From: a virus
Virus record (IMG/VR): IMGVR_UViG_3300031772_007302
Span: 1 to 40,571 of that record
Strand: one strand, 5' to 3'
DNA length: 40,571 nucleotides
Shown here: positions 9,601-40,571 of the stretch, piece after piece
How positions within the stretch are numbered: the stretch's first letter is position 1
How the letters are laid out: every line of letters starts with the position of its first letter
Made by a program: the position numbers and the translations under genes
Notes under the pieces: model-generated
Told to the model about the DNA's origin: nothing
Databases searched by the model: none
What the model saw: the letters and a program-made list of their open reading frames with translations, nothing else

Positions 9601-10002
9601 ATCCGCCAGTAGCGCCTTGCTGATCGCCACTCTCCGCGCCAGCGCACTAGGGTAGCTCCGCCCCGCGGCGATCTCCGCCGCGGTCTTGACCTGTGGCCTG
9701 GCGCCGGCCGACGGACCGGCCGTCTCGGGCCGCAATTGGAACGTCGCCAGGCTGGACGGAGGTTCAACCGGCAGCATGGGTTCGTCCCATACTGAGGCGG
9801 TCAGTGGCACAGGTTGGTAACCTGTGGGCCTCCGAAGCACGGGGCCGGCCCCCCCGGCAGTGCCGTAGGGCGGCACATCCCGGAGCAGATCCTGGAAATC
9901 CCCGCGGTTAGCCGCGGACGACGGCAGGACTGCCAACGGGGCCAGTCTCTCCCACGGGTCCACCTGTGCGAACGACGCCAGCGCCTCCCACGGGTCGGCC
10001 AT
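3646..10002 (-). CDS. Giant internal virion / large polyvalent protein (gp16-like, LPD38-type region)
   Basis: At 2118 residues this is the largest gene. The N-terminus is linker-like, and long charged coiled-coil stretches run from about 400 to 1100. From about 1530 to 1880 there is a conserved-looking block (GPVKRLKQATTTTYAPFWIL, later GFQGLYTPLRIMKAQ and HPLPWVWGWLFG) that resembles the large polyvalent protein-associated domain LPD38 found in phage ejection proteins. It contains two amphipathic or hydrophobic segments. No lytic transglycosylase motif was recognised. Placed last in the late operon after 236- and 635-residue proteins, it matches T7 gp16 in order and relative size, so DNA ejection through the envelope is the likely job. 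A coiled-coil unit ending RRAEQ(I/L)EAEAEKLS occurs twice, about 330 residues apart. Palindrome-derived peptides lie near residues 57-66 and 335-358. ATG 10002 has GGAGAGG 8 bases upstream. Confidence 0.8.
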   Translation of the reverse strand: MADPWEALASFAQVDPWERLAPLAVLPSSAANRGDFQDLLRDVPPYGTAGGAGPVLRRPTGYQPVPLTASVWDEPMLPVEPPSSLATFQLRPETAGPSAGARPQVKTAAEIAAGRSYPSALARRVAISKALLADRAPTVVERALETGSEARRVAAKTGLALAELPTDALTGLAGLSARIAQAIPVGGELPEDLTPEAWQQRGQRVHDVIRGWVDEHLGGPETPAGAFMSEMAPELMKMYGAGAIAGAATRATGVGEALAGSVPVTRLLHWAERRGGEMGRRMAEGVVQGMAAAPAFHVAMGGTGEPKQVATDVALFGLLGGLHGLGARHTAEIARPTGPSPQLRVNETPTEVGKPVPLAAAPEAAAPTLVTAPQEPPRAMIPPAPEPAPAVRVERPAEVQPGPEAGRAEPAAPPLTLAENAASMRQAARDLRDLAPTRSNGAAYIRRAEQIEAEAEKLSARVVAPATPVEVVQRSAEVPEAAGPEVAPLEQRYTDLSRRLASAETEHEQLVAEIDRLDASGASEQEAAEAMNRAARQYTEINALRDEMDSVALELDRQHYAGEGVAAGQNDLTLLENLSRVADTTGATSSKFQRAYPMRKTQRGRWVKSDGVVSLIDTTQWLEEVLRDQGISDPTPEQIAGARERVADLVRRSSRRATTYRVGDGDNAFLKDWGELDLGITPQEARAAERMLREELGRGRGWNLQEQRQVPAVEAAAPPRPVPTPVSESPVLVQPTLAPRTPEQQAAEMRRTAGELRDKSESVGRGYKASYLRRAEQLEAEAEKLSPSRPAGSRVQRNRGARQAAGGAEAAAPTGDVGPDVRPALQQRRRYVEENLRREGIAPGTPEAGRRGEELTQAHREAVRRALEAGQITPEEAVDRGHFVTHPELAEQYGIVSKELGERIASRTEREQAESARKERVRQAHEYFASKRGQRGQASLGPGRRFRNPYEGQAGSLQEDLGAAWEIGLDHFLEGVRTFADWSRRMVETTGEWVREHLPRLYHEVVQAWQHGEEIPEEVVRDRGAEILRGRPAGQGIEPGAIVHSADRGNYGKVVSVQGDRATVHFVSREGTEATVRIPLTQLTSTEGVAREAFGALREERNLEAYDLRLQVPAPTGDPAVKQMVSEVLSPERARKLSEPTVQVLRWYQKIFTRGWAHQDIALDTVGGRLKAILTEQGYDQELLGLAHDPAESMARAATAAGWKFRNAERDGWFDPDGNQVALGMEEIEHLAAFGSLPGEGVRGSAEGVKRALRPRQEQVERFWVYGLARRARELLQKALPMPETWTPSLVEQVIGELDSPQFQKAHAELQNWIHQGRLTLEETGWYGPGWADRMQQEHPNYLPFVRETLEATQSKGVSLRGDTAVPALVRSIKGGRMLVRDPRSQLLSQTRAMLEVTQHWRSRTQLRDWVTAARGGASAEEGAMLDQLARKLAPEELPDTMTPEQAGRLATDLMQSLTNVDGSSQPMTQATVKAALTGTALWRDPANKLPNNTLPVMGGGGKIEFWQVHPDLYEVYALRDSSLASFTGKVLGALFGPVKRLKQATTTTYAPFWILRNILRDIPDAIMQSPRRFPSRAEIREQGLFSPEIVKRFAAAATPIVGDLWPALRDVWAKGAEYRALGRAGAFQEMGGGYRMEPGIPGEGYDTGLGRRAGAAVYRGLQRLGPAGDVAETAGRTLAYFGSMPFNAVAKLGEISEQMSRMAGGRQAVRDALGRGASQENATAAGAAAARQVTLPFERGGQWGKALNRGKAFLSAGFQGLYTPLRIMKAQPVETLIRGITWVTVPTMLAYALNHDNPDWKRLSPFRKYGTLSWPIGKDQKGETCWFWHPLPWVWGWLFGSTAVMAMERWAAHDPQAVKDWAEQGVSALSPAGQGADFGSARTGAELLKQVGLGAGMGLAPDLAETVGGLLANRNWTGRDIVPKWDLQKHPSVQVKDYTSELARLAGRGGASPLEVDYLLDETFASLGRDIRAAVDRVVAETGHGTKPVGVSDQPIFLRSVVGKASQGASDDWRADFENELTRLKATESIAKAKEEAGQDLTPQEETALDRLSEAGQVDNELRDLSKQRREITRDAAATPERKQRELDVLTAEETELLAEYLGRPVPEWAARLSAAP
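8930..9000. repeat. Dispersed repeat type C (copy 1), inside the giant gene
   Basis: About 66 bases starting AGTGGCACAGGCTTGCCCA match 14031-14095 with about ten differences. Both copies are read in the same frame, giving PTE(V/M)GKPVPL and SP(Q/E)LR in otherwise unrelated proteins. The 5' part contains the inverted repeat GCCCACCTCGGTGGGC. Related shorter copies starting GTGGCACAGG lie at 9808-9832 (GGTTGGTAACC core) and 39119-39165. Confidence 0.75.
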
Positions 10003-13205: not shown

Positions 13206-13493
13206 TCACTCCGTCACGCTCCCCGGCGTCCGCTTGTCCGGCTGCCTCGCCGCGAACGAAACCCCGATCGCTATCACCCACGCCTCCGCCCCGATCACCA
13301 GGCCTCGGAACACGGCAGCGCCCGTCCAGTTGTGCCCCGCCCACAGGTGCCCCATCGAGAGCACCAGGCAGAGAACGCCGGCCGTCAGCACCGTCTGCCG
13401 GCCCTGCATGCTCGGGGCCATCACCTTCAACCCCGCCACCAGTCCCATCACCAGCGACGCGATCACCGCCGAGCTGCCGAGATCCGGCATCAT
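13206..13493 (-). CDS. Three-span small membrane protein, holin candidate
   Basis: The start ATG 13493 overlaps the upstream TGA (ATGA). The 95-residue protein has three hydrophobic segments: SSAVIASLVMGLVAGLKVMA (about 6-25), LTAGVLCLVLSMGHLWAG (about 36-54) and VFRGLVIGAEAWVIAIGVSF (about 60-80). A short charged tail ends RQPDKRTPGSVTE. Size and topology fit a class I holin. It is 1.7 kb downstream of the endolysin and separate from the XhlA-like gene at 15618-15851, so two lysis membrane proteins may exist. No sequence family is recognised. Confidence 0.6.
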   Translation of the reverse strand: MMPDLGSSAVIASLVMGLVAGLKVMAPSMQGRQTVLTAGVLCLVLSMGHLWAGHNWTGAAVFRGLVIGAEAWVIAIGVSFAARQPDKRTPGSVTE

Positions 13494-14161
13494 AACGCCT
13501 TCGTCATCGCCAGTCCCGGCGCCACCGCGATCCCGATCCCGATCCTGTCCAGCAGCGGTATCCGGCTGCGGGAGATGTCGGAGGAGACCACGTTCAACCC
13601 GATCCCCACCTGCGCGCCTACCACCGTGCCCACTGTTACCTTCAGTCCCCCCGTCGCGTGGTAGCGCGATCTGCCCCCTACCGAGGTGACCAGGCCCACG
13701 TTCCCCAGGAGCCCGCCCTTGTCGATCCGAACCAACCGCCGCTCCAGCACGAAGGCCGTCGCCTGGCTCTCCGAGCCCCATAGTGTGATGAAGCCCGCGC
13801 CGTCCGCCTGCTTGAGGCAGGCAAGGGCGAAATCAGCCACCTGCTGCCCAAAGTCGATCACCGCCCCGCCCGCCTCTTGCACTGTCGCCAGGACGCCACC
13901 CCCGCCGCCGGTGCCGGTCCGTCGGCTGACGGATTTCTCCGTCTCCGTCGCCGTCTGGGCCACCGTACCCGTCGCCGTGTCCCAGGTCTGGCCCGGGCCG
14001 ATCGTGATCTGCTCGCCCGGGCCCAGGGTCAGTGGCACAGGCTTGCCCATCTCGGTGGGCGCCAAGCTTAGCCTGAGCTCCGGCGAAGGGCTTGTGGCTG
14101 CCACCGCCGCCATCCCCGCCGCCAACACCAACACCAGCACCAACATTGTCACTCGCATCAT
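13490..14161 (-). CDS. Secreted-type protein of unknown function with signal peptide
   Basis: The 223-residue protein starts with a textbook signal peptide (MMRVTMLVLVLVLAAGMAAVAA, cleavage near residue 22). A repeat-derived stretch (SPELRLSLAPTEMGKPVPLT) and a Gly-rich hinge precede a compact C-terminal half. That half, from about residue 85, has LATVQEAGGAVIDFGQQVADF and ends in a Gly/Val-rich beta segment. Two dispersed repeats lie inside: type C at 14031-14095, and a family A palindrome at 13918-13933 read as KSVSRRTG. The C-terminal half may be a lipid- or membrane-associating beta domain; I cannot name it. AGGGAGGCGGAG precedes the start. Confidence 0.6.
   Translation of the reverse strand: MMRVTMLVLVLVLAAGMAAVAATSPSPELRLSLAPTEMGKPVPLTLGPGEQITIGPGQTWDTATGTVAQTATETEKSVSRRTGTGGGGGVLATVQEAGGAVIDFGQQVADFALACLKQADGAGFITLWGSESQATAFVLERRLVRIDKGGLLGNVGLVTSVGGRSRYHATGGLKVTVGTVVGAQVGIGLNVVSSDISRSRIPLLDRIGIGIAVAPGLAMTKAL
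14031..14095. repeat. Dispersed repeat type C (copy 2)
   Basis: This is the partner of 8930-9000: the same 5' end AGTGGCACAGGCTTGCCCA, the same GCCCA..CTCGG..TGGGC inverted repeat and the same reading frame in an unrelated gene. Confidence 0.75.
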
Positions 14162-14573: not shown

Positions 14574-15137
14574 TCAGCCTGATCCCCATACCAGCCTCCG
14601 CTCCTCCTGCAGCCGTCGCTCCCGCGCTGCCTGCACCTTCGCCCGTACCTCGGCCCCGTTTCCATCGGGGGGCCCATACCCCAGCACCCGGCAGAGCAGA
14701 TTCAGACTCTGCAGGCTGCTAAGCCGTGCCTTCTTGATGTCCTGCTGCAACTGCAGCATCTCCACCACCCCCGCCTCCGTAGGGCAGGAGCTTGCCTCCT
14801 GCCATCCCTGCCCCGCCGGCAGGGAATCCATCAGCTCCTGCTCCACCTGCACCGCTGTCGGCAGCGAATCCGCGTTCTCCAGCCTTTGTTTCTCGGCCGG
14901 CACGTCAATCATCCGGTTCTGCTCCCGGCGCCAGTGCTGCATTGCCCCCTGGATCACCCTCACGAAAAACGTGCTCGCCGCCCCCTTGGCGGGGTCCCAC
15001 TCCGGCGCCCGCCGCCACACCGCCACCCGCGCCTCTTGGCACGCGTCCTCGCCATCGGGGCCCCACAGCCGCAACTTGCTCGCTGTCACCTGGATCGCCC
15101 TCTCGAATTGCACCAGTGCCTGCTCGCCGGTCATCAT
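14574..15137 (-). CDS. RNA polymerase sigma-factor-like protein (sigma70 region 2)
   Basis: The product is 187 residues from ATG 15137 (GGAGGGGG ribosome site). Residues 31-73 read DACQEARVAVWRRAPEWDP, then KGAASTFFVRVIQGAMQHW and RREQ. This matches sigma70 region 2: the acidic core-binding start D..QEA, the WDP..G..F turn, then R.I.GAM....R for -10 recognition. A possible region-4-like helix pair is at 130-180 but is not convincing. It would let the phage redirect host RNA polymerase, presumably to a subset of its own promoters. A type D repeat (14775-14803) is inserted in frame between the two halves and read as WQEASSCPTE. Region 2 looks sound; the loss of a clear region 4 is odd. Confidence 0.7.
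   Translation of the reverse strand: MMTGEQALVQFERAIQVTASKLRLWGPDGEDACQEARVAVWRRAPEWDPAKGAASTFFVRVIQGAMQHWRREQNRMIDVPAEKQRLENADSLPTAVQVEQELMDSLPAGQGWQEASSCPTEAGVVEMLQLQQDIKKARLSSLQSLNLLCRVLGYGPPDGNGAEVRAKVQAARERRLQEERRLVWGSG
14775..14812. repeat. Dispersed repeat type D inside the sigma-like gene
   Basis: The 29-base core CTCCGTAGGRCAGGAGCTTG plus YCTCCTGYC (inverted repeat GRCAGGA..TCCTGYC) also occurs at 31839-31867 in the small terminase gene with three differences. A shortened form lies at 19301-19329 at the start of the fibre gene, sharing CTCCGTAGGGC and CCTGCCATCCCTG with this copy. The two full copies are translated in different frames. Confidence 0.72.
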
Positions 15138-15153
15138 CTTCGCCGCCCCCTCC

Positions 15154-15621
15154 TCACGATCGCACCTCCCCGAAAAGCTCATCGAGTTTCGCGCCCACGT
15201 CCCAGTGGCGCCGCAGATTCTGGTCGTGCCCGACGATGCACACCCCATGGCTTCCGGTCGCCTCGATGGTGATGTCGTCGCCGATCACCAGCGCCACGTG
15301 CCCCGGGTGGGTATCGGTCGCGTGCATGAACAGCAGACAGCCGGGCTGTTGCCGCGCCGCCGTCACCGGGATCTGCCGGCACAGTGCGAGCTGGTGCGAG
15401 CTGCCGTTGAAGCTGCCAATCTCAATCTGCTTCCCGTCGCGCACCAGGTGCGTCACCCCCAGCGCCGCCAGTCCTATCGCCACCCACCTCCGCACCGCTC
15501 CGGAGCAGTCCGCCTTCCACTGCGTCTGCCGCTTCCCGCTCAGCGGCGGCTTCGCCCCCCAGCGGTAGGGCATGCCGATGTCCGCCCGGGCCGCCGCGAT
15601 CGCCACCGCCACCCCAGTCAT
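15154..15621 (-). CDS. NlpC/P60-family endolysin
   Basis: The 155-residue product is a single cysteine-peptidase domain. The nucleophile Cys39 lies in KADCSGAVRRW, preceded by IGMPYRWGA. The catalytic His108 is in THPGHVALVIGDD, and a third polar residue is likely in ATGSHGV (near 125). This is the NlpC/P60 order C-H-polar, and such enzymes cut the gamma-D-Glu/diaminopimelate bond in the peptidoglycan stem. There is no signal peptide, so a holin is needed for release. The start ATG overlaps the stop of the XhlA-like gene (ATGA), pairing the two as a lysis cassette. Confidence 0.85.
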   Translation of the reverse strand: MTGVAVAIAAARADIGMPYRWGAKPPLSGKRQTQWKADCSGAVRRWVAIGLAALGVTHLVRDGKQIEIGSFNGSSHQLALCRQIPVTAARQQPGCLLFMHATDTHPGHVALVIGDDITIEATGSHGVCIVGHDQNLRRHWDVGAKLDELFGEVRS

Positions 15622-15851: not shown

Positions 15852-16231
15852 CACTGTTCCCTCGTGTCCACCGGCATTACCCGCGCCGAGATCCGCCCAT
15901 CAGACGTGATCAGTGGCTGCGCCTGGAAATCCACCTGCTCCCGCTTCATCACCTCCAACACCCGGCCCAGGCGTTCCCGGTAGCGTTGCTCCCGGATCTG
16001 CCGCACCTGCTCGTCCGAGATCGCGGGAGTAGCCCCGTGGGGCGGGTTGGTAACCCGCCCGTCAACCGGCCCCGGCATCATCGCGGGCGCCGCCGGTGCC
16101 GTTGCATTCTCGCCCCGTGCCGCCAGCGCCGCCACCACCAGCGCGGCCGCGGTAGCAATCACGATGAGCCCATAGGGCAGGACCTTTAGTCGCCTCGGCG
16201 ACTTGACTCCTGCCATGCGCCCCCGCCTCAT
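15851..16231 (-). CDS. Membrane-anchored periplasmic-type protein with repeat-derived linker
   Basis: The protein has 126 residues. A very basic start (MRRGRMAGVKSPRRLK) precedes one long hydrophobic segment (LPYGLIVIATAAALVVAALAA), then a linker and a charged helical C-terminus (SDEQVRQIREQRYRERLG). The linker PVDGRVTNPPHGATP is the translation of an inserted palindrome (GGCGGGTTGGTAACCCGCC, 16040-16058). Position directly before the XhlA-like gene and endolysin suggests a lysis role such as an inner-membrane spanin, but there is no outer-membrane lipoprotein partner. Start ATG overlaps the previous stop (ATGA). Confidence 0.6.
   Translation of the reverse strand: MRRGRMAGVKSPRRLKVLPYGLIVIATAAALVVAALAARGENATAPAAPAMMPGPVDGRVTNPPHGATPAISDEQVRQIREQRYRERLGRVLEVMKREQVDFQAQPLITSDGRISARVMPVDTREQ
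16037..16062. repeat. Dispersed palindrome type B (short form)
   Basis: GGGGCGGGTTGGTAACCCGC is a perfect-arm palindrome around GTTGGTAAC. Related copies: 9808-9832 (CAGGTTGGTAACCTG) and 35527-35547 (GCCGGGTTGGTAACCCGGCC). Half of it forms the right stem of the 49-base type B element at 34376 and 37400 (AGGGTTGG.AACCTGCCC). Confidence 0.7.
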
Positions 16232-26362: not shown

Positions 26363-28401
26363 CGCATTCCCCCCTGCAACTGCATCAACGCGGCCGCCAG
26401 CGGGTTCGCCCCACTCGCCTGCGGGATCAGGTTGCCAGCTTCCACCCCCTGCTCGACCTGGGCGTCGGGCTCTACCTGCACCGGCTGCGCGGGCGTTCCC
26501 TGGATAATGAAATCCTCGAAGTTACGCGCCCCCAGCAAGTGTGCCGCCTCCTTCACCATCTCTAGCCAGTCCAATCTAGAGCTCAGCAGCTGCGACCCGG
26601 CCACCATCGTCGCCATCTTCAACCACAGTTGCCCGATTTGCTCTTTTTTCACCGGCTCGGTCACGTCCACCGGACGCAGCACGATCTCCCCCTGAATCTG
26701 CTCGGGCCCCACCAGCGCCCGCCCCCCGCTCTCCAGCGCCTCCCGCCGGCGCGCCGCATCCCCTATGATCGTGTAATACCGGTTCTCAGTGAGGTTCCGT
26801 TGGATGTCCGCCAATTCGTGTTTTGCCCAAGGCCGCACCCCTTGGTTCCACATCAGCCTGCCGCGCTGCCCCGCTCGCCCCTGCGCCGCCCGCAGCACGC
26901 TCTCCACCTCCGTCGCCGTCCGCCCCGCCGACATCATGATCCCCTGCAGGCTGTCCACCGCCCCGGTGGCGAACTTGATCATGTCCCCCATCGAGTTGAT
27001 ATCCACCAGCAGGTTCCGGGTCACATCCACCATCGGCAGGATGCTCACGATCTTCTCGATCGGCATCGTCGCCAATTTCGCCCGGATCCGCATCCCCGGC
27101 GTCGCGGAGTTGATGTCGCCCTCGTTGTACAGGCCAGCCGGATCATAGACGATGTTCTGGTAGATGCCCTTCCGCAGCCCGGCCAGCCTCGCGTTAGCCA
27201 GGAAATTCGCCATCTGTTGCAGCCCCATCGTCAGCTCGACGTCTCCCGGATTGAACAGCTTGTGGGCATCGAAGTGGCTGTCCATGCAGTACACCGGGAA
27301 CGTCCGCTGGCTCGAGGGCCGTGCCCGACAGATGGTCTGGTCAATCAGCACGAACTCCCAGATCTGCGGCACGTAGCTGCTCCCGATCGCCACCTCCGGC
27401 CGGGGCCACTCCGCCGGGATCAGTCGCACCCACACATGGTAGGCCTGATAGTAACCGGGATCGCCCGGCGTCGCCTGTTGCCCATGCCGCGCCGGCGCAT
27501 ATTGCCCCGGCGAGAGGTTGTTACTGGTGCGCTGGTCCTGCCCGCCCGCGGCCCCTTGCTTCACCCGATCAACGTTGAATAGTTGCCCCTCGATCTCGTG
27601 TCCCTTCAGCCGGTTCCAGCTCATCCAGGTCTCGAATCCGATGAACTCGCCCTGCTGCGGGTCCCATCCCGGCGCCCGGGGGTCCTGCAGCACCATCCGC
27701 GGCTCGAGTGGGGTGTTGACCTGGCGTTCCTCGACCAGTTGCCACTGCGCCTGCTGTACCTGCTCCGTGCCCAACGAGATCCCGAGCATCCCCAGCATCG
27801 GCTGCGCCTGCTCCACGTAACGCAGCTCGTGCTCGGCGTACCAGCAGGTGTGCATGTACCCCCGCCCGTACACCGCCGCCGACCAGAGCCAACTCCACAT
27901 CTTGGCGTCGATCCCATCATCATCGTGCATCGCATCCATGATGGTCTCGGCATATTCGGCCGCACGATCATACCGCGGGTCGTGGCTCTTCAATGGGATG
28001 GTCGGCTGCCGGCTGGTGAAACTCATCAGCCAGAACGCCACCAGCGTCTCCACCGCCGCCGCCGTGAACGGCACGACGATACTGCGCTCGTGCGGGTGCA
28101 GCCGCCGCCCCGTCGCCGGATCGGTCTCGTAGGGGTCGGCATAGCTCATCACCAGCTTCTCCGCCGACTCCATCGCCGGCCGCCGCAGAGAGGCATGCCG
28201 CTCCGCCAGGTCGACCAGCGCGTGCAGCTCCACCGCTACCGCATCGTGCAGCGGTTGACCGGGCGTCATGCCCTGGCTCGGGTCGCGAGTGTCCGTCAGC
28301 TGACGGACCGGCCGCGCCCAATTTGGCGCCGTCCCCTGTCCATCAGCCGACGGGCCGCGTGAGAGTATCCCTATGCCCCTGTCAAGGCCTAGTTCGCTCA
28401 C
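26359..28401 (-). CDS. Portal protein
   Basis: The 680-residue portal-type protein has AMESAEKLVMSYADPYETDP near 85, TSRQPTIPLKSHDPRYDR and a central wing/clip-like region (GIDAKMWSWLWSAAVYGRGY). IDQTICRARPSSQRTFPVYC, then MGLQQMANFLANARL and SMGDMIKFATGAVDSLQGIM follow, with a C-terminal helix-rich tail. Its size and its place beside the large terminase fit the P22/podovirus portal group. The start is uncertain: GTG 28401 overlaps the upstream TGA (GTGA), but the first 45 codons include two palindrome-derived stretches (PSADG and VRQLTD), and ATG 28269 would begin after them. The TSRQPT stretch inside is not a palindrome copy. Confidence 0.82.
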   Translation of the reverse strand: MSELGLDRGIGILSRGPSADGQGTAPNWARPVRQLTDTRDPSQGMTPGQPLHDAVAVELHALVDLAERHASLRRPAMESAEKLVMSYADPYETDPATGRRLHPHERSIVVPFTAAAVETLVAFWLMSFTSRQPTIPLKSHDPRYDRAAEYAETIMDAMHDDDGIDAKMWSWLWSAAVYGRGYMHTCWYAEHELRYVEQAQPMLGMLGISLGTEQVQQAQWQLVEERQVNTPLEPRMVLQDPRAPGWDPQQGEFIGFETWMSWNRLKGHEIEGQLFNVDRVKQGAAGGQDQRTSNNLSPGQYAPARHGQQATPGDPGYYQAYHVWVRLIPAEWPRPEVAIGSSYVPQIWEFVLIDQTICRARPSSQRTFPVYCMDSHFDAHKLFNPGDVELTMGLQQMANFLANARLAGLRKGIYQNIVYDPAGLYNEGDINSATPGMRIRAKLATMPIEKIVSILPMVDVTRNLLVDINSMGDMIKFATGAVDSLQGIMMSAGRTATEVESVLRAAQGRAGQRGRLMWNQGVRPWAKHELADIQRNLTENRYYTIIGDAARRREALESGGRALVGPEQIQGEIVLRPVDVTEPVKKEQIGQLWLKMATMVAGSQLLSSRLDWLEMVKEAAHLLGARNFEDFIIQGTPAQPVQVEPDAQVEQGVEAGNLIPQASGANPLAAALMQLQGGMR
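28291..28308. repeat. Family A perfect palindrome near the portal N-terminus
   Basis: GTCCGTCAGCTGACGGAC, 18 bases, is identical to 25733-25750. A weaker copy with CAGCCGACGG follows at 28341-28353. Both lie between the two possible portal starts and stay in frame. Confidence 0.85.
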
Positions 28402-29081
28402 CACCTGCTCGCGTGATAGGAGATCATGTACCCGTCCGCCGCCGTGATCGTCGTCTCCGGCAGTACTGTCCCGTTGGCCGCCGACACCGCGGCTCCCGCC
28501 GGCAGCGCCCCCGCCGCGGTCACGATCCAGGCCGTTCCCGCCGACGCTTTCAGCGCGATCTGGGTGACGTCGGCAGCCGCCGCGATCGGCCGATACAACC
28601 CCAGGTAATCGCCCCATCCGATAGTGAAAGTCTTCCCACCCGGGACGGCCACGCTCCCCACGCTGATCGATGTCACCGTCTTGAAGGGCACCTGTCCCTG
28701 CACGGTCGCCGCCCCCGTCCCGGTGATCACCTCCGTCTGCACGTTGTCGGACCAGTCCGTTCCAATGATGCTCACCTTGCTCAGGCAGACCGCATCATTG
28801 CCCGTGATGGTGATGTTTCGGTAGTGTGCTGGGCTCGTGATCGCGGCCGTGGTTGTGGTCCACACCGTGTTCAGCACCCCGGTCGGGATCGCGATAGCGG
28901 CGTGCACCCCGGCTGCTGACAGTGCCGCCACCGCATCCATCACCTGGATGGTCGGATATCCCCCCCATCTCGACACAGGCGGCATCGCCGCCCCCACTTG
29001 CCGCAGCGGCAGCACCAGCAATACCAGCGCCAGCGCCACTAACAACATCGCCAGGCTCAACCATACAGCTCTCCGCTTCAT
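28398..29081 (-). CDS. Exported-type beta protein, second of a tandem pair (decoration candidate)
   Basis: The 227-residue protein has a signal-peptide-like N-terminus (KRRAVWLSLAMLLVALALVL, then GAAMPPVSRWGG). The mature part is beta-rich (VAALSAAGVHAAIAIPTGVL, TITGNDAVCLSKVSIIGTDW) and ends PETTITAADGYMISYHASRW. It is a paralogue of the preceding gene (29129-29812), the same length and collinear throughout. A beta-sandwich surface-decoration or fibre role is plausible from its place before the portal. GGGAGATAGAG precedes the start. No family name is assigned. Confidence 0.7.
   Translation of the reverse strand: MKRRAVWLSLAMLLVALALVLLVLPLRQVGAAMPPVSRWGGYPTIQVMDAVAALSAAGVHAAIAIPTGVLNTVWTTTTAAITSPAHYRNITITGNDAVCLSKVSIIGTDWSDNVQTEVITGTGAATVQGQVPFKTVTSISVGSVAVPGGKTFTIGWGDYLGLYRPIAAAADVTQIALKASAGTAWIVTAAGALPAGAAVSAANGTVLPETTITAADGYMISYHASRW
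28801..28911. repeat. 111-base near-identical block shared by tandem paralogues
   Basis: These bases match 29532-29642 with one mismatch (T 28854 against C 29585). The copies are 731 bases apart. Sequence either side differs strongly, so this is a sharply bounded conserved block within the paralogue pair and fits recent gene conversion. Confidence 0.85.
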
Positions 29082-29128
29082 CTCTCTATCTCCCGTTGCT
29101 CCTGCTGACGTTACCCGCGTCTACAACC

Positions 29129-29812
29129 CTACCACCTCTGCGCGTTGTACGTGATCAGATAGCCGTTTACGGCCGTGATCGTCGTCTCCGGCAGTACTGT
29201 CCCGTTGGCCGCCGACACCGCCGCTCCCGCCGGCAGCGCCCCTGCCGCCGTCACCGTCCAGGCCGTGTCCGCGCTCACCTTGGTCATGATCTGCGTGACA
29301 TCGGCGTCGGCCGCGATGGGGCGATACAGCCCCAGGTAATCGCCCCATCCGATGGTGTAGGTGGCGCCGCCCGGCGCCGCTACCGAGCCGACTTTGATGG
29401 ATGTCACCGTCTTGAACGGCACCTGTCCCTGCACCGTCGCCGCCCCTGTGCCGGTGATTACCGAGACGCGGACGTTTCCTGCCCAGTCCGTCCCGGTGAT
29501 GACCACCTTCGACAGGGCCGCCGCCGCCGAACCCGTGATGGTGATGTTTCGGTAGTGTGCTGGGCTCGTGATCGCGGCCGTGGTCGTGGTCCACACCGTG
29601 TTCAGCACCCCGGTCGGGATCGCGATAGCGGCGTGCACCCCGTCCACGGAGAGCGCCGCCACCCCCTCCATCACCTGCGCACATGGGTATTTCCCCCACC
29701 TCGACACGGGCGGCATCGCCGCCCCCACCGGCCCCATCGGCAGCACCAACAACACCACCGCCAGCGCCACCAACACGGCCCCTAACGTCAGACACAACCT
29801 CCTGCGCTTCAT
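29129..29812 (-). CDS. Exported-type beta protein, first of a tandem pair (decoration candidate)
   Basis: This is the 227-residue paralogue of the next gene. The N-terminus (KRRRLCLTLGAVLVALAVVL, then GAAMPPVSRWGK) is a signal-like segment. The mature domain has three blocks identical or nearly so to the second copy: GVHAAIAIPTGVLNTVWTTT, GTGAATVQGQVPFKTVTSI and AGALPAGAAVSAANGTVLPE. The blocks between them vary (TGSAAAALSKVVITGTDWAG against TGNDAVCLSKVSIIGTDWSD). ATG 29812 with GAGGAGATG was preferred over 29833 because the basic N-region begins there. The alternation of fixed and variable blocks suggests surface loops under selection. Confidence 0.7.
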   Translation of the reverse strand: MKRRRLCLTLGAVLVALAVVLLVLPMGPVGAAMPPVSRWGKYPCAQVMEGVAALSVDGVHAAIAIPTGVLNTVWTTTTAAITSPAHYRNITITGSAAAALSKVVITGTDWAGNVRVSVITGTGAATVQGQVPFKTVTSIKVGSVAAPGGATYTIGWGDYLGLYRPIAADADVTQIMTKVSADTAWTVTAAGALPAGAAVSAANGTVLPETTITAVNGYLITYNAQRW

Positions 29813-29839
29813 CCTCGCATCTCCTCTCGACATCTGCCA

Positions 29840-31808: not shown

Positions 31809-32470
31809 GCCCGCTTGCCCTTCCGAGTCTTCGACCCACTCCGTAGGACAGGAGCTTGTCTCCTGTCACTCAACTTAGGCTCCGTCTCCCCCCTCAACTT
31901 CCCCGCCAGGATCGCCCGCAGCTCCTCGTCGCTCATCCCCGCCACCCCGTGTTCCTGCCGTACCGTGCCACTGTGCTCCTGCTGCTGCTTATCCCGCCAG
32001 TTCTCCGGTTGCCTGTTTTTGAGCCAGAAGATCTGAGCGCTCACGTCGGGCACTACCTGTTTGCTAGTGATCTCCGATCGCACCAGCTCGGGCCGCGCCA
32101 GATCACTTAGCCCCATCTCCATCTCCTGCTCGGGCTCCTCCAGCAGTGACGGCTGTTCCGAGGTATCTGGCTCCGGCCGCGCGTAAACGTCTTTGCGCTC
32201 TTTTACCGAGTAACCAAGCGCCCTCTTATAAAGGGCCTTCTCCACGCGTTCGTCAGCCGCGTCTTTTCCGGCCTTTATGGCGGCCGAAAACTCGCTGTGC
32301 TCCTCCTGCCAGGCCTTCAGAGTGCTCAGCGCTACGTCTAACTCGCCCGCGATTTCCGCCGACGTCAGACCCTTCACGGCCAATTCGTACGCGCGCTGCG
32401 GATGCCGTTGCCGCAGGTATTTCGTCGGCCGACCCTCCCTCCTCCCCGCCTTCGCGCCTGTGCGCCTCAT
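31805..32470 (-). CDS. terS: Terminase small subunit
   Basis: The 221-residue protein has a helix-turn-helix N-terminus (GRREGRPTKYLRQRHPQRAY, GLTSAEIAGELDVALSTLKA), then a helical oligomerisation segment (FSAAIKAGKDAADERVEKAL, KRALGYSVKERKDVY). A conserved DVSAQIFWLKNRQPENWRDK motif is typical of small terminases. It recognises DNA for packaging and feeds TerL. A type D repeat (31839-31867) is inserted in frame at the C-terminus and read as DRRQAPVLRS. ATG 32470 was chosen because the upstream stop is at 32473 and a longer frame would overlap that gene. Confidence 0.85.
   Translation of the reverse strand: MRRTGAKAGRREGRPTKYLRQRHPQRAYELAVKGLTSAEIAGELDVALSTLKAWQEEHSEFSAAIKAGKDAADERVEKALYKRALGYSVKERKDVYARPEPDTSEQPSLLEEPEQEMEMGLSDLARPELVRSEITSKQVVPDVSAQIFWLKNRQPENWRDKQQQEHSGTVRQEHGVAGMSDEELRAILAGKLRGETEPKLSDRRQAPVLRSGSKTRKGKRA
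31839..31867. repeat. Dispersed repeat type D in terS
   Basis: CTCCGTAGGACAGGAGCTTG followed by TCTCCTGTC is an inverted repeat GACAGGA/TCCTGTC. The sister copy at 14775-14803 in the sigma-like gene is read in another frame. Confidence 0.72.
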
Positions 32471-32886: not shown

Positions 32887-33083
32887 GAAAAAACGGCGCG
32901 GAAGACACAGTAGTTACCCGTAGGCCCGGTAGACCCGCGCGTTCAGACCGCACCCCGGTTTTGTTAAGTGCATAATCGCCGAAAAAACGGCGCGGAAGAC
33001 ACAGTAGTTACCCGTAGGCCCGGTAGACCCGCGCGTTCAGACCGCACCCCGGTTTTGTTAAGTGCATAATCGCCGAAAAAACG
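32887..33083. repeat. 94-base tandem repeat, 2.1 copies
   Basis: A 94-base unit is repeated at 32887-32980 and 32981-33074, with the first 9 bases of a third copy at 33075-33083. Copies are identical by eye. The unit starts GAAAAAACGGCGCGGAAGAC and ends TAAGTGCATAATCGCC, so A-rich and GC-rich stretches alternate. It contains no open frame of note. Directly repeated units of this kind are often replication iterons or multi-site binding regions. Recent duplication is implied by the identity. Confidence 0.9.
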
Positions 33084-33135: not shown

Positions 33136-33209
33136 GCCCCCGTAGCTCAGAGGATAGAGCGCCACTCTTGCGAAGCTGGAGGCCGTGGGTCCGAATCCCA
33201 CCGGGGGCA
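33136..33209 (+). tRNA. tRNA-Arg-like gene with imperfect anticodon stem
   Basis: The sequence folds as a cloverleaf: a 7-bp acceptor (GCCCCCG/CGGGGGC, plus A), a 4-bp D stem GCTC/GAGC with GG and A20-like ATA, and a T arm GTGGG-TCCGAAT-CCCAC. The length is 74. The D-loop GGATA and the loop TTGCGAA suggest tRNA-Arg (anticodon GCG). The anticodon stem does not pair cleanly: the 5' side CCACTC meets GCTGG, where CCAGC would be perfect, leaving an extra base. A reading with anticodon TGC has a bulged C. No encoded CCA. It may be a weak tRNA, a pseudogene or an attachment-site remnant. Confidence 0.62.
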
Positions 33210-33734: not shown

Positions 33735-34166
33735 TCAGTCCTCCCCGCTGCCGGTCCGGGGGTCAGGCCGGATCGTCACCTCTACCGTCCCCTCTGCTAG
33801 CAGAGCCAGGTCCTCCCAGCCGCGGGGATTCGTAGGGTAACAGGTGACCGAGTAGAGGTCCCCGCCCCGCGTCGCCAGTTTCAGTTTCGCCGGAAACCTC
33901 ACCCCCTCAATCCGGACCGGCTCCCGGCTCGCGCCCTCGCCGCTCTCCTCGCCCGCCACCGTCACGATCACGCTCACCGCCTGCCCCTCTGCCTCCGTGA
34001 TCGCCCGCAGCCGGTTCACCCAATCCACGTGCTCCGGATTGCTCGGGGTCACCCTCAGCACGATCTCCCCCGCCGACAGCACCTCCCGGGCCCCCAGCGG
34101 TGGCACCGCCACCAGCGAAGGGCATTCGACCTCCGCGAATCCTCTGAACGTGATCGAGTTACCCAC
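33735..34166 (-). CDS. Unknown 143-residue beta-rich protein
   Basis: The start GTG 34166 overlaps the ASCH-gene stop by eight bases. The first part is beta-type (NSITFRGFAEVECPSLVAVP, SAGEIVLRVTPSNPEHVDWV), with an alpha segment VNRLRAITEAEGQAVSVIV and a further beta half (RIEGVRFPAKLKLATRGGDL) with an acidic end. It may be a nucleic-acid binding or recombination accessory by position among DNA-metabolism genes, but no family is recognised. Confidence 0.5.
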   Translation of the reverse strand: MGNSITFRGFAEVECPSLVAVPPLGAREVLSAGEIVLRVTPSNPEHVDWVNRLRAITEAEGQAVSVIVTVAGEESGEGASREPVRIEGVRFPAKLKLATRGGDLYSVTCYPTNPRGWEDLALLAEGTVEVTIRPDPRTGSGED

Positions 34167-34734
34167 TTGCCTTCGCCTCCCGGATCCCGTCGATCTCCCG
34201 GTGTACCATCGCCTCCACCTCCGCCGGCAAGTCCCAGACCCCCAATTGGCCCCGCAGCGGCAGCACCGTCTCCAGCCGCACCGCCCCCGCGAACACCCAC
34301 GCACAGAGTCCCTCCGCCCACCACTCCAGCGGATTGAGGTGCAGCGGCTGCTCCCGCTCGAACAGGTCCCTCCCGTGGGGCAGGCTTGCCCGCCGGCCGT
34401 CGAGAGGGTTGGCAACCTGCCCGTCCGTCCGGTACCAGTGCCATGCGACCAGCCGCGCCACCCCCACGATCCCGCCCAGCCTGCTCACCATCGAGGGATG
34501 GGCGGGCCGCATTCGCGCGAGTTCCCAGATGCGGACCGGCGCGTCTAACGCGATGGACTTCCCGGCGTGGATGGCCAGCAGCGGATAGTCACTCAGCCCC
34601 AGCCGCAGCCGATTCGCCCGCATCACTTTCTCTCGCAGATCGGGAGACGGCTGCCAGGTGCGGATCTCGATGCTCTTCGATCCGTTCACCAGACACTCCG
34701 CCCAGGGCTGCTTCACCGAAAGGGCAAACATCAT
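34159..34734 (-). CDS. ASCH-domain protein with in-frame repeat insert
   Basis: The 191-residue protein has MMFALSVKQPWAECLVNGSK, then SIEIRTWQ, IHAGKS, ARMRPAHPSMVSRLGGIVGV and a closing WVFAGAVRLETVLPLRGQLG. That is the ASCH (PUA-like) fold, with the PW..L..G.K..E.R start; ASCH proteins bind RNA or act on nucleic-acid bases, and the phage role is unknown. Between two core strands is DGQVANPLDGRRASLPHG, encoded by the 49-base type B element (34376-34424). This would be an exposed loop. The start ATG overlaps the upstream stop (ATGA). Confidence 0.8.
   Translation of the reverse strand: MMFALSVKQPWAECLVNGSKSIEIRTWQPSPDLREKVMRANRLRLGLSDYPLLAIHAGKSIALDAPVRIWELARMRPAHPSMVSRLGGIVGVARLVAWHWYRTDGQVANPLDGRRASLPHGRDLFEREQPLHLNPLEWWAEGLCAWVFAGAVRLETVLPLRGQLGVWDLPAEVEAMVHREIDGIREAKASG
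34376..34424. repeat. Dispersed repeat type B (copy 1, in ASCH gene)
   Basis: 49 bases are shared with 37400-37448, differing at two positions. The element has two hairpin halves: GGGCAGGCTTGCCC on the left and AGGGTTGG.AACCTGCCC on the right, joined by GCCGGCCGTCG. Read in the same frame in both genes it gives (A/D)GQV(A/P)NP(L/P)DGRRASLPH. A shorter related stem lies at 34897-34918. Confidence 0.88.
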
Positions 34735-35483
34735 CCCGCCTTCGCTGCCAGCCCCGCCGCCAGCGTCTGGAGTTTCTGCGCCAGCTTTGCGGGAGGCCAC
34801 TTGTGCCGCTTCGCCATCATCCGCAGCGCCCGCTCTCCCTGGGCCCTGCGCGCTTCCGGGTTCCATTGGGGCCCTCCCGCGGGGCGCCGGCCCGTTGTGG
34901 GGCGGGCTTGCCCGCCCGATCTCACCAACCGCACCTTCAGCTCCACCAGGTTGACCGGTCTCCCCGCCTGCGCCGCCTCGATCGCCACCTCGAGTTGTTC
35001 CACCCGCGCCTCGGCCGTGGCTTTCGCCCTCTGCAGCGCCGGCAGGATTCTGGCTTTTTGCCGCTCCGCCTTGCCTCGCTCCCTGGCCGCGACTCTCACC
35101 CGCGCCGCCAGCGCCTGGAGTTCCTCCACCGACATGCTGCTGAGATCCGCTATGCCCTGGTGCGCCGCTTCCTCCCGATCCGGTGTTGATCGCATCTCGC
35201 TTTTCGCCTCCGCTCCTGATCCTATCTCTCCCGCCTCCATCCGCTTCCGCACCCTGCTCGCGGTCGCCATCACCGCCTCCCGCGTCAGCCGATCCAGGCC
35301 CACCAGTAGCTCGCGTTCGCCCCGCGCGTAACGGAGAGCGAGCCGGGGTACGCAGTCGCTGACATCCTCCTTCGCCGCCCCCTTCGGCGACCCGCAGTCC
35401 GCCGTCACCGTCGCCCTGGTCAGCCCGCACCGCAGTTCGTGGCCGTCACTCACGATGTGCCCGCATCGCCGCTGTTGCCTCAC
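34731..35483 (-). CDS. Unknown coiled-coil protein with N-terminal Cys cluster
   Basis: The product is 250 residues from GTG 35483, overlapping the ParB-like stop (GTGA). Cys are at 7, 19, 30 and about 44 (RRCGHIVSDGHELRCGLT, TADCGSPKG, SDCVPRLALR), a possible zinc site. A helical basic middle follows (LDRLTREAVMATASRVRKRM), then a long coiled coil (MSVEELQALAARVRVAARER to about 170) and a basic tail ending KLAQKLQTLAAGLAAKAG. The segment RSGGQARPTTGRRPAGG corresponds to a short repeat stem (34897-34918). Unknown function. Confidence 0.55.
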   Translation of the reverse strand: MRQQRRCGHIVSDGHELRCGLTRATVTADCGSPKGAAKEDVSDCVPRLALRYARGERELLVGLDRLTREAVMATASRVRKRMEAGEIGSGAEAKSEMRSTPDREEAAHQGIADLSSMSVEELQALAARVRVAARERGKAERQKARILPALQRAKATAEARVEQLEVAIEAAQAGRPVNLVELKVRLVRSGGQARPTTGRRPAGGPQWNPEARRAQGERALRMMAKRHKWPPAKLAQKLQTLAAGLAAKAG

Positions 35484-37627
35484 CTCCCCCTCCGGGATCG
35501 AGCCTTCCGGCCTCTCGCTTTCGTGCGCCGGGTTGGTAACCCGGCCGGGTCCGCCACCGACTCCTTCAGCCCGAACACGACCCGTGGGCCCGTGATCAGG
35601 TAGCGCGCGGGCCGGTAATGATCGGGGGTGCCCACGTTCGACTCGATCTCTACCCCCGCGAACTCCTCCCCCCCCACCACCCTGGCATATGCCTCCGGGC
35701 CCGGGTCCATCAGCGCCACCAGCCCCGCCGCCCCGGTCCACCTGCCGTTCTCGCTGATGGTCGTGATCACCACGTAAGGCACGCCATCTACGCGCTGCAG
35801 CGGCACGTCCACCGTCAGTCCCTGGCGCAGTCTGGGCGTCGCCAGCGCCCCGCAAAGGGAATTCATCGCCTCCTGGCTCACCACTACCCGTTCCGGCGGC
35901 GGCTGTACTTTCGCGCCTTGGCGTTTCGGTCCGTCAGCCGACGGATCAGTCCCGACCCCACCCGGCGCCGCTTTCGCGGCCTTCACGTCCTTCGCGGCCT
36001 CCGCTTTCTGGGCCTTTTCCTCCGCGGCCGCCGCCTTCTCCCGCGCCTTCACCTCCGCCGCCCCCTCCTTCTGCAGCGCCTTCAGATCCAGCCCCAGCTC
36101 CTCTGCCTGAACCCGCAGTTCGTACGCCGACGTGCCCGACAGCGCCACCCGGAATGGCAGCCACGCCAACTCCTCCGGCGACAGGTCCTCCAGTTTTGCC
36201 CGCACTGCCGCCGCGATATCCTCTGCCGCCTCCTCGCCCGTGAATTCAAGTCCCACCAGCTCTCCGAACGCGCGTATATCGGCTTCGTCGCTCTCCATCC
36301 AGAAGTTCCGGATCGACTCCCAGATGATCACCATCACCGCCTCCGGCTGCGTCGGGCTGGTGATCCGCTGCGCCAACTCCTCCCGCACCCGATCCGCTAC
36401 GAACAGGTCGATCTGTCGCTGCCGTCGCCAGTCATCATCCCCCGCACCGGCGCGCGCCCCGGACCCCTTCCCTCGGGGCCGGTGCACCTTGCACTCGGCC
36501 TCTGCGCAGACCCTCGCCGTCTTGCCGATCTGCCTGCCCGAGACGTACATGCCCAGGCGCGCGTGCGGGCAGTCCGGCACCGGCTTCGCCTTGCCGACCG
36601 TCTCCCCGATCACCACCTGGGCGTGCAGTGGGATCGCGCCCTGGGGAACGGGATAGGATTCCCCGCTCAGCCGCAGCACCGGCTTCCCCGCCTGCTTTTC
36701 GGCTCCCGCGACCGCCCGCTCCAGGAATGCCTTCACCTTCCGCTGATAACAGGCCGAGTCGGTGCACACGTCCGCCTTTTCGATGTCCGGGAATAGCGCC
36801 GGCGTGGTGCCGGTCCGCTTGGGGCAGGTGGTGCAGACCCCGACCTTGGGCAGCAGGTCCGCGTCCTTCGGCCTGAACGGCGCCGTTGATAGGCTCAGAT
36901 GGAATCTCCGGTGAATCCAGTTGGCCAGTGCCCGCACGCTCGGCGTGCTGTACCCGCCGCCCAATTCCTTCAGCGCCTGCTTCTGCTGGGCCGGCGTGAG
37001 CCGGGCGATCAGGATGGCGTGCCCCGCCGTCACCTTCTCGCCCTTGAGGAACGCGGCCTGCGCCTCCTCGATCAGGTCGCCCAACTTCAGGCGCTGGTAG
37101 ACGTAGCTCTCCGACTTGCCCACCTTCGCCGCGATCGCCGGGGCGTCGTAGCGGCCGGTCTCCAGCAGACGCCGGTACCCGATCGCCTCGTCCAGGGGGT
37201 GCACGTCCTCCCGCTGCACGTTCTCTATCACCTGCAGTTCCAGCACCTGGTCGTCGCTGAGCTCCATCACCCGTACCGGCAGGTCCGCCAGCCCCGCCAG
37301 CTTCGCCGCCCGATAGCGCCGGCTGCCAGCCACGATCTCGTAGGTGCACGCGTCTGCAGATGCTGCGGAACCCCTCGACCGTGCTCCCCCCTGTGGCCTG
37401 TGGGGCAGGCTTGCCCGCCGGCCGTCGGGAGGGTTGGGAACCTGCCCGGCCTCCGGGGGCCCGGCCTTCCCTGCCTCCGGCAGCCGCCGCACCAGCAGTG
37501 GCACCAGCACTCCCACCTGCTTCACGCTCTCCACCAGCTCCGCCATCCCCCGCTCGTCGTAGCGCCGGCGGGGATTCGTTTTCGACTCCCGCAGACTTTC
37601 GATCCCTACCGCCATGAACTCGCCCAT
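35480..37627 (-). CDS. parB: Large ParB/RepB-like DNA-binding protein
   Basis: The protein is 715 residues, far longer than a usual ParB (about 300). The N-terminus has the ParB nucleotide-binding core (TNPRRRYDERGMAELVESVK, then GVLVPLLVRRLP and YEIVAGSRRYRAAKLAGL, QVIENVQREDVHPLDEAIGY), followed by the helix-turn-helix IAAKVGKSESYVYQRLKLGD. A Cys-rich segment (CTTCPKRTGTTPALF, CTDSACYQRKVKAFL, later CAEAECKVHRP), charged coiled coils and a C-terminal domain follow. About 30 residues rich in Gly/Pro are inserted inside the core, encoded partly by the type B element (37400-37448). Two further repeats give PSADG and AGLPTRR in linkers. No ParA-type ATPase is present. GGGAGGTATC precedes ATG 37627. 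Confidence 0.82.
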   Translation of the reverse strand: MGEFMAVGIESLRESKTNPRRRYDERGMAELVESVKQVGVLVPLLVRRLPEAGKAGPPEAGQVPNPPDGRRASLPHRPQGGARSRGSAASADACTYEIVAGSRRYRAAKLAGLADLPVRVMELSDDQVLELQVIENVQREDVHPLDEAIGYRRLLETGRYDAPAIAAKVGKSESYVYQRLKLGDLIEEAQAAFLKGEKVTAGHAILIARLTPAQQKQALKELGGGYSTPSVRALANWIHRRFHLSLSTAPFRPKDADLLPKVGVCTTCPKRTGTTPALFPDIEKADVCTDSACYQRKVKAFLERAVAGAEKQAGKPVLRLSGESYPVPQGAIPLHAQVVIGETVGKAKPVPDCPHARLGMYVSGRQIGKTARVCAEAECKVHRPRGKGSGARAGAGDDDWRRQRQIDLFVADRVREELAQRITSPTQPEAVMVIIWESIRNFWMESDEADIRAFGELVGLEFTGEEAAEDIAAAVRAKLEDLSPEELAWLPFRVALSGTSAYELRVQAEELGLDLKALQKEGAAEVKAREKAAAAEEKAQKAEAAKDVKAAKAAPGGVGTDPSADGPKRQGAKVQPPPERVVVSQEAMNSLCGALATPRLRQGLTVDVPLQRVDGVPYVVITTISENGRWTGAAGLVALMDPGPEAYARVVGGEEFAGVEIESNVGTPDHYRPARYLITGPRVVFGLKESVADPAGLPTRRTKARGRKARSRRGR
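35527..35547. repeat. Short type B palindrome in the parB C-terminus
   Basis: GCCGGGTTGGTAACCCGGCC is a perfect palindrome around GTTGGTAAC, read as AGLPTRR in the last 20 residues of the ParB-like protein. Related to 16037-16062 and 9808-9832. Confidence 0.75.
35923..35955. repeat. Family A palindrome in the parB coiled-coil linker
   Basis: GTTTCGGTCCGTCAGCCGAC and the GGATCAGTCCCGAC that follows match 29874-29909. In the minus-strand frame it is read as DPSADGPKR between a Lys/Ala-rich helix and the C-terminal domain. Confidence 0.82.
37400..37448. repeat. Dispersed repeat type B (copy 2, in parB)
   Basis: 49 bases match 34376-34424 with two differences. The insert interrupts the ParB core after VPLLVRRLP and keeps the frame, supplying GQVPNPPDGRRASLPHR plus flanking Gly/Pro residues. 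Confidence 0.88.
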
Positions 37628-38636: not shown

Positions 38637-38881
38637 CCCGCCTGCCTCTGCATCCGCGCTCGCTCGATCTCCCGCCTCAGTTCCTCCGGCAGATCCGCCA
38701 TCGACTCCCGCAGCATCTCCCGGGTGGCGCCGTTCGCCCGCCGCATCTGGTATCGCAGCCGCTCCCGCCAGTGCAGCCCGGCCCGGTGTCTCGCCCTCCT
38801 GCCGCGCCGGCGCCACCGCCCCGGGCCGGGTGGCGCCTCGCCGTAGATCACCGAGGGCATCTCCCTGGTCTGCTCAGCCAT
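38633..38881 (-). CDS. Basic small protein between replication and RuvC-like genes
   Basis: The 82-residue product starts MAEQTREMPSVIYGEAPPGP and is then strongly basic (GRWRRRGRRARHRAGLHWRE). A helical C-terminus (LRESMADLPEELRREIERAR) follows. ATG 38881 overlaps the upstream gene's end by eight bases. The basic-then-acidic layout suggests DNA or RNA binding; no family is named. Confidence 0.5.
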   Translation of the reverse strand: MAEQTREMPSVIYGEAPPGPGRWRRRGRRARHRAGLHWRERLRYQMRRANGATREMLRESMADLPEELRREIERARMQRQAG

Positions 38882-39743
38882 CGCCTCTCTCCCTCGCCAG
38901 CCATCCCGCCCAGGCCCGGTCCGGCCGCCGCGGCCGCGTCGGTGTCGCTCGCGCCGCGAATCGTTCCGCCGAACGCGCGACCTCCGCCGCACTCAGATCG
39001 GGGCGGGTCCTCACCGCGCTCAGGAACCCGCCCCGGCTCACCCCCACAGTGCCCACCACCAGGTTGCACCGCTCCATGCTCGGCACGCCCTCGAAGGGGT
39101 GCCGCGTCTGGGGCCCAGTGGCACAGGCGTCTCGCCCGTGGGTCGTTTGGGCCGTGGGCCTCCTGGCCGTCAGACCCCCAAGAGCTTTAGCTCCCGGAGA
39201 CTCAGACGGCCGTCTGCGTGGCGTCTCCCCTGGTGATAAGCCGCGCGGTCTGGTCTTCTCTATGAAATAGACAGTCTGTCTGGTCTCCCCCCTCCTCCCT
39301 CCCCCCGTAACCGCGCACTCTACAGTGCGCGCTTTCGGGGGGGGTGCTAACTCTACAGTGCGCGGTACCGCGCACTCTACAGTGATCACCCCGAACGGAA
39401 GTTCGCCCTCCCCAGGGCCCCTTTTCAACAGGTTATCCACAGCCCCCGCCCACCAGGTGGGTCCCAGGTCGTAAGTCCCCGCCCGGCCCTCCGGCGCCCG
39501 CCGCCTCAGGTACTCGAGCTCCTCCAGCCGGCGCAGCGATCGCTGCACCAGCGCCCGCGCGCTCGGCATCTCCGCCTCCAGTATCCGCACCACCGTCGCC
39601 GCCCGGATCCGCAACGGTTCCATCCGCTCCCGCTCCTTGTCCCACCGCGCCATCCCCAACAGCGCGATCAGCACCCTCAGGTCCCACTCCCCCAGTCGCC
39701 TGTCCGCCGCCACCCGCACCGGCACCATCGCGAATTGCTGCAA
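38874..39743 (-). CDS. Winged-helix replication-type protein
   Basis: The product is 289 residues from TTG 39743, which has GGGGAGG five bases upstream; ATG 39728 is an alternative. The N-terminal half has FAMVPVRVAADRRLGEWDLR and a winged-helix layout (LIALLGMARWDKERERMEPL, then AATVVRILEAEMPSARALVQ, SLRRLEELEYLRRR). That resembles helix-turn-helix phage initiators of the DnaD/RepA/O-like kind. The middle is low-complexity and includes the peptide AQTTHGRDACATG, translated from a GTGGCACAGG-type repeat (39119-39165). The C-terminal third has ARSAERFAARATPTRPRRPD. Replication initiation or helicase recruitment is inferred from position and fold. Confidence 0.65.
   Translation of the reverse strand: MQQFAMVPVRVAADRRLGEWDLRVLIALLGMARWDKERERMEPLRIRAATVVRILEAEMPSARALVQRSLRRLEELEYLRRRAPEGRAGTYDLGPTWWAGAVDNLLKRGPGEGELPFGVITVECAVPRTVELAPPPKARTVECAVTGGGRRGETRQTVYFIEKTRPRGLSPGETPRRRPSESPGAKALGGLTARRPTAQTTHGRDACATGPQTRHPFEGVPSMERCNLVVGTVGVSRGGFLSAVRTRPDLSAAEVARSAERFAARATPTRPRRPDRAWAGWLARERGDG
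39119..39165. repeat. Type C-related repeat in the replication-type gene
   Basis: The left end GTGGCACAGG matches 8931-8940, 9808-9817 and 14032-14041. The rest forms stems such as GGCGTCTCGCCC, and GCCGTGGGCC. Its translation includes the peptide HGRDACATG. Confidence 0.6.
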
Positions 39744-40418: not shown

Positions 40419-40571
40419 TCAGGTTCCTTCTGCGGCCGGTTCCATATCGGCCGCCGTATCTTCGCGCTGGCTCTCTCGGCTCAGGCATGGGGTCTCCTCC
40501 AGGAATCGAATGGGCTTGTTCTGGGCACGGGCATACGCCAGTTCGCGTCCCGTGGATTCACCGATGTACCC
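40419..40571 (-). CDS. Deoxyribosyltransferase-like protein, C-terminal part (continues from 1-447)
   Basis: From 40571 the frame is the same as 123-1 on the left copy and then continues to the TGA at 40421-40419. It adds DMEPAAEGT after the shared sequence. Together with 1-447 it gives one uninterrupted gene across the circular junction. Confidence 0.88.
   Translation of the reverse strand, partial: GYIGESTGRELAYARAQNKPIRFLEETPCLSRESQREDTAADMEPAAEGT
40449..40571. repeat. Terminal direct repeat, right copy (pairs with 1-123)
   Basis: Same 123 bases as 1-123 apart from the silent changes at 40551 and 40554. One copy should be removed when the molecule is circularised. Confidence 0.93.

Follow-up and report, generated by a model that had tools for sequence, protein, structure and literature searches.

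REP-like palindromes in frame within two unrelated genes of a probably temperate phage and at other sites in a sister phage

The phage and its repeated 49-nt unit

The window, i.e. the whole stretch of DNA analysed, is the virus record IMGVR_UViG_3300031772_007302, which is 40,571 bases long. It contains genes for an integrase (996-2012, plus strand; phrog_1 integrase, 9.3e-53), the small and large terminase subunits, a portal/adaptor and a major head protein, and it is bounded by 123-bp terminal direct repeats (1-123 and 40449-40571, 98% identical), which suggest a near-complete genome. Because of these genes and of the terminal repeats, the window is most likely a near-complete tailed phage, and the predicted integrase gene indicates that it is probably temperate. 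Two genes of the minus strand are of concern here. The parB gene (35480-37627) is predicted to encode a protein with ParB_N and HTH_ParB domains (Pfam, 1.3e-21 and 5.3e-12), with Spo0J/ParB as match in the PDB. The ASCH-domain gene (34159-34734), the start of which was inferred from relatives, matched Pfam ASCH below threshold (0.013) and phrog_3193 at 2.5e-22; further support was provided by the ASCH protein of Burkholderia phage CSP3 and by paralogs in a sister phage.

Several other features of the window are worth recording. A tRNA-Ala gene (anticodon TGC; 33136-33209) may be an attachment site or a phage tRNA, and the sole match of an Rfam search was a tRNA. A tandem gene duplication of ~731 bp occupies 28398-29833, with copies 80-86% identical and a single copy in the sister phage; an exact tandem duplication of 94 bp, possibly an assembly feature, is found at 32887-33074. 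A perfect palindrome of 14-16 bp, CCGTCRGCYGACGG, occurs in 13 copies between 11484 and 39759 (16 with a looser centre); there is none in the first 11 kb of the window, the searches made in the sister contig did not find it, and three of the copies (11951, 29874 and 35923) have longer flanks in common. It could be either another mobile palindrome or a set of candidate binding sites for the phage ParB. Membership of the CGTC superfamily was considered for it and not adopted, since CGTC there is part of the stem.

The unit that is the subject of this analysis is 49 nt long and present twice on the minus strand, at 34375-34423 inside the ASCH-domain gene, where it encodes GQVANPLDGRRASLPH, and at 37400-37448 inside the parB gene, where it encodes GQVPNPPDGRRASLPH. 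The copies agree at 47 of 49 positions, i.e. they have two mismatches and are 96% identical, which confirms the repeat in two unrelated genes and in the same frame reported in a preliminary description of this DNA; the position given there was right for the parB copy, whereas the start of the ASCH copy had been placed one base too far to the right. The direct repeat around the unit is 93% identical over 55 nt (34372-34426 and 37397-37451, spacing 3025), and a gapped pattern derived from the unit has two matches in the window and none in 100 dinucleotide shuffles. Both copies have the same orientation and codon phase within their ORFs, giving the peptide GQV(A/P)NP(L/P)DGRRASLPH. The unit contains no stop codon in any of the six frames, so that an open frame is in itself unsurprising and weak evidence.

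Each copy opens exactly at GTGG, followed by GGCAGGC-TT-GCCCGCC, a spacer and GGGTTGG(C/G)AACCTGCCCG, and it reads, from its base sequence, as a GTGG-tagged REP hairpin joined head-on to what would be a second, degraded REP. The left stem contains a mismatch (A.C), and its counterpart on the right is short. Folding was no better than that of shuffles (z-scores of -0.2 to -1.2); a stable two-stem fold was rejected, and the name 'two-stem element', proposed earlier, is only weakly supported by folding. The right ends are CCTGCCCGTCC and CCTGCCCGGCC, as opposed to CCCCAC/CCTAC in three bacterial pairs described below. REPINs have the tag at both outer ends and the right end of the 49-nt unit is without GTGG; because this tag is missing, the unit is best called a degraded REP pair rather than a proven REPIN. 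The GTAG/GTGG superfamily tag is found at the left end of both 49-mers and in single copies elsewhere in the window; a perfect or near-perfect stem of 6-9 bp with a short loop, another mark of that superfamily, is seen in the single copies. Outer arms in the manner of a classical MITE are present (GGGCAGG/CCTGCCC), and on inspection of the sequence their flanks show no consistent target-site duplication.

The ASCH and ParB sites in relatives

At the ASCH site, the two paralogs of the sister phage, which are ~60% identical to the window's protein, read WYRTD-IGHDGEAYRG-R where the window reads WYRTD-GQVANPLDGRRASLPHG; the peptide encoded by the 49-nt unit is absent from both. (In the sister contig, L180, the C-terminal halves of these paralogs, 2616-3134 and 5572-6123, are nearly identical, and a DNA methylase-like ORF, 6133-7323, ends with part of the sequence of these halves.) The nearest relative of the ParB protein (L054), which aligns to the window's parB at 71-77% DNA identity on both flanks, reads LLVRQVGKDGRYEVVAG at the site and is also without the peptide, as are all 34 phage ParBs that were aligned. 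The blastn flanks aligned to this relative (36748-37343 and 37488-37621) bound an extra stretch on the minus strand, 37344-37487, which holds the second copy and has 144 nt as against 21 nt; the model described below places this stretch, about residues 52-94, in a disordered loop. The net gain over relatives is about 123 nt in ParB and 21 nt in ASCH, and neither copy is a clean 49-base insertion.

Since relatives of both proteins do without the peptide, these alignments argue that the DNA, and not a protein motif, is the unit of homology, as had been proposed; the outcome named at the time as contradicting that proposal, i.e. relatives with the same peptide encoded by unrelated DNA, was found neither in the sister ASCH proteins nor in the ParBs. 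The claim that the ParB insert interrupts a conserved core was not supported: in the 38 relatives where the loop before YE(I/L)VAG(E/S)RR could be delimited, it is 4-57 residues long. In a model of the N-terminal part of ParB (35 sequences, mean pLDDT 86), residues 50-94 or so form a low-confidence, disordered loop, and the predicted loop with the insert falls between strands 44-48 and 96-100. Alignment and model together support the view that the ParB site is an exposed, length-tolerant loop rather than conserved core, in agreement with the exposed loop that was first suggested. The ASCH model (pLDDT 45) is too poor for the site to be judged.

Tagged hairpins in the window, in other viruses and in bacteria

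That the element is of REP type escaped the preliminary description: such hairpins are also found elsewhere in the phage and in its sister, and bacterial genomes have related forms of them. Besides the 49-nt pairs, the window contains about ten further REP-like copies, those located here being on the plus strand. A perfect single version of the left half, GTGG-GGCGGGCTTGCCCGCC, lies at 34897-34917 (GTGG tag and perfect 7-bp hairpin, GTGGGGCGGGCTTGCCCGCC) in frame in gene 34731-35855, the sister homologue of which has a shorter, REP-free stretch at this site. A perfect single version of the right half, GTGG-GGCGGGTTGGTAACCCGCC, lies at 16037-16059 (GTGGGGCGGGTTGGTAACCCGCC, GTGG tag, 8-bp stem) and has an identical copy at another locus of the sister phage. 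Two more hairpins are of the right type, one with a GTGG tag inside a 2118-aa ORF (9804-9826, GTGGCACAGGTTGGTAACCTGTG) and one with the tag GTGC in the C-terminal codons of parB (35522-35545, CGTGCGCCGGGTTGGTAACCCGGC), while two carry GTAG, at 14779-14803 inside ORF 14574-15248 (GTAGGGCAGGAGCTTGCCTCCTGCC) and at 31843-31867 in the C-terminal tail of the small terminase gene (phrog_309; GTAGGACAGGAGCTTGTCTCCTGTC). The single copies have a stem of 7-8 bp and a loop of 2-3 nt. Longer GTGGCACAGGC repeats start at 8929, 14030 and 39118: a 68-nt GTGGCACAGGCTTGCC repeat is present in the 2118-aa ORF (8929-8996) and in ORF 13490-14161 (14030-14097), with 87% identity between the two, and a GTGGCACAGGCGTCTCGCCCGTG repeat (39118-39140) encodes the peptide HGRDACAT in ORF 38874-39743. 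The other copies of the half-element read as different peptides or are intergenic.

The sister phage, IMGVR_UViG_3300032053_011152, has a terminase 86% identical to that of the window. There, the 23-nt hairpin of position 16037 directly follows the gene for the large terminase, at a site that is a gap of the window in the alignment, and the small terminase gene has a second hairpin, in frame, at its end (RQVANLPHK). The C-terminal tail of the small terminase holds a different REP in each phage (window 31843-31867, GTAG-tagged; L180 11600-11649) and is apparently a hotspot or a replacement site for REPs. If tagged hairpins with stems of 7 bp or more are counted, the window has 0.99 per 10 kb and the sister 1.96, as compared to 0.09 in 1.10 Mb of other phage loci, i.e. 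a density 11 to 21 times higher in the two phages, although the counts behind it are small (4 and 3). The presence of REPs at other places in the sister virus suggests that small mobile repeats can colonise virus genomes.

When 2.9 million viral contigs, the window's own record left out, were scanned with a 23-mer degenerate at three positions, matches were obtained only in the sister and in one other contig, and the exact 49-nt composite was found in no other viral contig. In a third viral contig, IMGVR_UViG_2710264768_000002, GTGGGGCGGGTTGGCAACCCGCCCTAC lies among phage genes (3076-3103). A 16-mer, GGGCAGGCTTGCCCGC, occurred in 18 viral contigs and was not used, because this is about the level that we estimate to be expected by chance for a collection of that size. 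A DNA search of phage records gave no match for the region and, for the element, only matches with E about 0.7; plasmids gave none.

The exact composite was present in none of 84,980 genomes. Two-headed pairs with GTGG or GTAG at both ends are present in two Planctomyces-like MAGs and one gp7 Acidobacteria MAG (L022, L025 and L024). Copies of the half-hairpin number 92 and 79 in these two Planctomyces-like MAGs, against 0 for a reversed-pattern control, and another planctomycete has 55 matches, of which the listed ones read GTGGGGCAGGCTTTCCAGCC. None of 297 Acidobacteria had the right hairpin with its GTGG tag, and it proved rare among Planctomycetes, where 2 of 294 had it when one mismatch was tolerated. 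For the RAYT itself (Y1 transposase, PF01797) there was no match in the phage; PF01797 is present in the REP-rich bacterial genomes (G001-G003), and the flanks of its loci in these genomes are without these REPs.

Origin of the repeats and comparison with known systems

We consider it likely that the 49-nt unit is a REP-type mobile palindrome pair, which the temperate phage acquired as DNA by a route involving a host RAYT or recombination, and which was kept in tolerant loops. Several results speak against this reading: no other genome or virus searched has the exact composite, its right half has a short stem and no GTGG tag, neither site is a clean insertion, target-site duplications are not consistent, the phage has no RAYT, the bacterial Y1-transposase loci are not flanked by these REPs, and the tagged right hairpin is absent or rare in the Acidobacteria and Planctomycetes scanned. 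The starting points are observations: a repeat at the DNA level, its absence from relatives, tagged hairpins elsewhere in the phage and different REP sites in the sister. For the transposase, the host, the timing and the order of events we infer the following. The likely route would be a host single-strand transposase of the RAYT/TnpA-REP type, with a prophage or replicating phage DNA as target, or else copying by recombination, which accounts just as well for two composites that are nearly identical. The substrate of host RAYT transposases is a tagged REP hairpin in single-stranded form (PMC8266576), and for related Y1 transposases the target is the template of the lagging strand (PMC6006769). 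Small indels and selection would later have kept or restored the reading frame. The two composites may stem from two insertions of one source, or from one insertion later copied within the phage. Their in-frame loop position would be most simply a survival bias, only copies in frame and tolerated in loops having survived; persistence in two genes is understandable because the loops are length-tolerant and the unit is in frame and free of stops in every frame.

A narrower explanation, possible in our opinion though we would not favour it, is that the REP pair entered only once and was then copied locally to a second site, by gene conversion or template switching between the two genes, which lie 3 kb apart, so that the pair need not have transposed repeatedly. 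Only the two sites of the window are known to have the composite with its exact spacer, single hairpins being more widespread, and local copying would also account for the common orientation and codon phase and for a similarity reaching 55 nt. Against it, no fewer than five further tagged hairpins, belonging to three types, lie elsewhere and the sister has its own set, so that repeated arrival happens in this lineage anyway. It is unlikely that the repeats are functional sites kept by selection (a terminator, a regulator or a binding site for a partition protein) rather than passive mobile DNA. The phage does encode a ParB and has many short palindromes, and bacterial REPs can serve as transcription or binding sites, but the positions differ between the sister phages, the repeat is missing from the ASCH and ParB genes of relatives, and folding is no stronger than in shuffles. 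An assembly artefact or host contamination is very improbable: short GC-rich repeats can mislead assemblers and the record is a metagenomic contig, but both ORFs are open through the element and the sister, assembled separately, has the same hairpins in phage genes. Homology at the protein level, i.e. a conserved peptide module common to ParB and ASCH, was rejected as practically untenable, since the shared frame and near-identical peptide are outweighed by the relatives without the peptide, by the DNA identity and by half-elements that read otherwise or lie between genes.

The usual description of REPs is that of repeats of the chromosome. Bacterial genes with REPs inside them are already known, as are the palindromic inserts that Rickettsia carries in frame; our limited search of the open-access literature found no report of REP colonisation of a phage genome with polymorphism between sister phages. 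We may tentatively propose that the temperate phages of REP-rich bacteria are colonised by RAYT-mobilised REPs and carry them between hosts. If so, REPs would spread horizontally by virus and diversify phage proteins through in-frame loops. Two sister phages that differ in the sites of the same hairpins provide a natural record of how REPs move in a virus; with phage REPs, some of them inside protein genes, it becomes testable whether phages carry REPs, and those in frame show one way in which phage proteins gain new loop sequence.

Rickettsia palindromic elements (RPE) are palindromic DNA found in frame in unrelated protein genes of bacteria. The 49-nt unit is like them in being a palindromic insert within ORFs of unrelated genes, which leaves the frame open and is absent from the orthologs (ASCH, ParB), but its copies are viral. 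Of the RPEs, RPE-4 and RPE-6 are assigned to the CGTC superfamily (PMC3733652). With REPINs or BIMEs (PMC3116915, PMC8266576), the 49-nt pair shares two opposed hairpins and a short spacer, whereas it is without the second tag and the phage without a RAYT; a modelling paper deemed replicative horizontal transfer of REPINs unlikely (PMC8049555). The two-headed bacterial pairs resemble the unit in their GTGGGGCAGG / GTAGGGCAGG ends and AACCTGCC right arm but have tags at both ends and differ in loop bases and spacer. By their sequence, the phage hairpins appear to have the features of the GTAG/GTGG REP superfamily of bacteria (Di Nocera 2013, PMC3733652; Opitutus terrae GTAG-20), for which GTGG variants and intragenic REPs encoding 20-30 aa have been described in Opitutus terrae and others, in a text with no word beginning 'phage'. 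What differs here is the location in a virus, together with the untagged right end and imperfect left stem of the 49-nt pair. The likeness lies in the terminal GTGG tag, the 7-8 bp stem and 2-3 nt loop of the phage single copies, several families side by side and in-frame intragenic copies; moreover, the superfamily is known in Planctomycetes and Verrucomicrobia, and some of the related elements found here are in Planctomyces-like MAGs.
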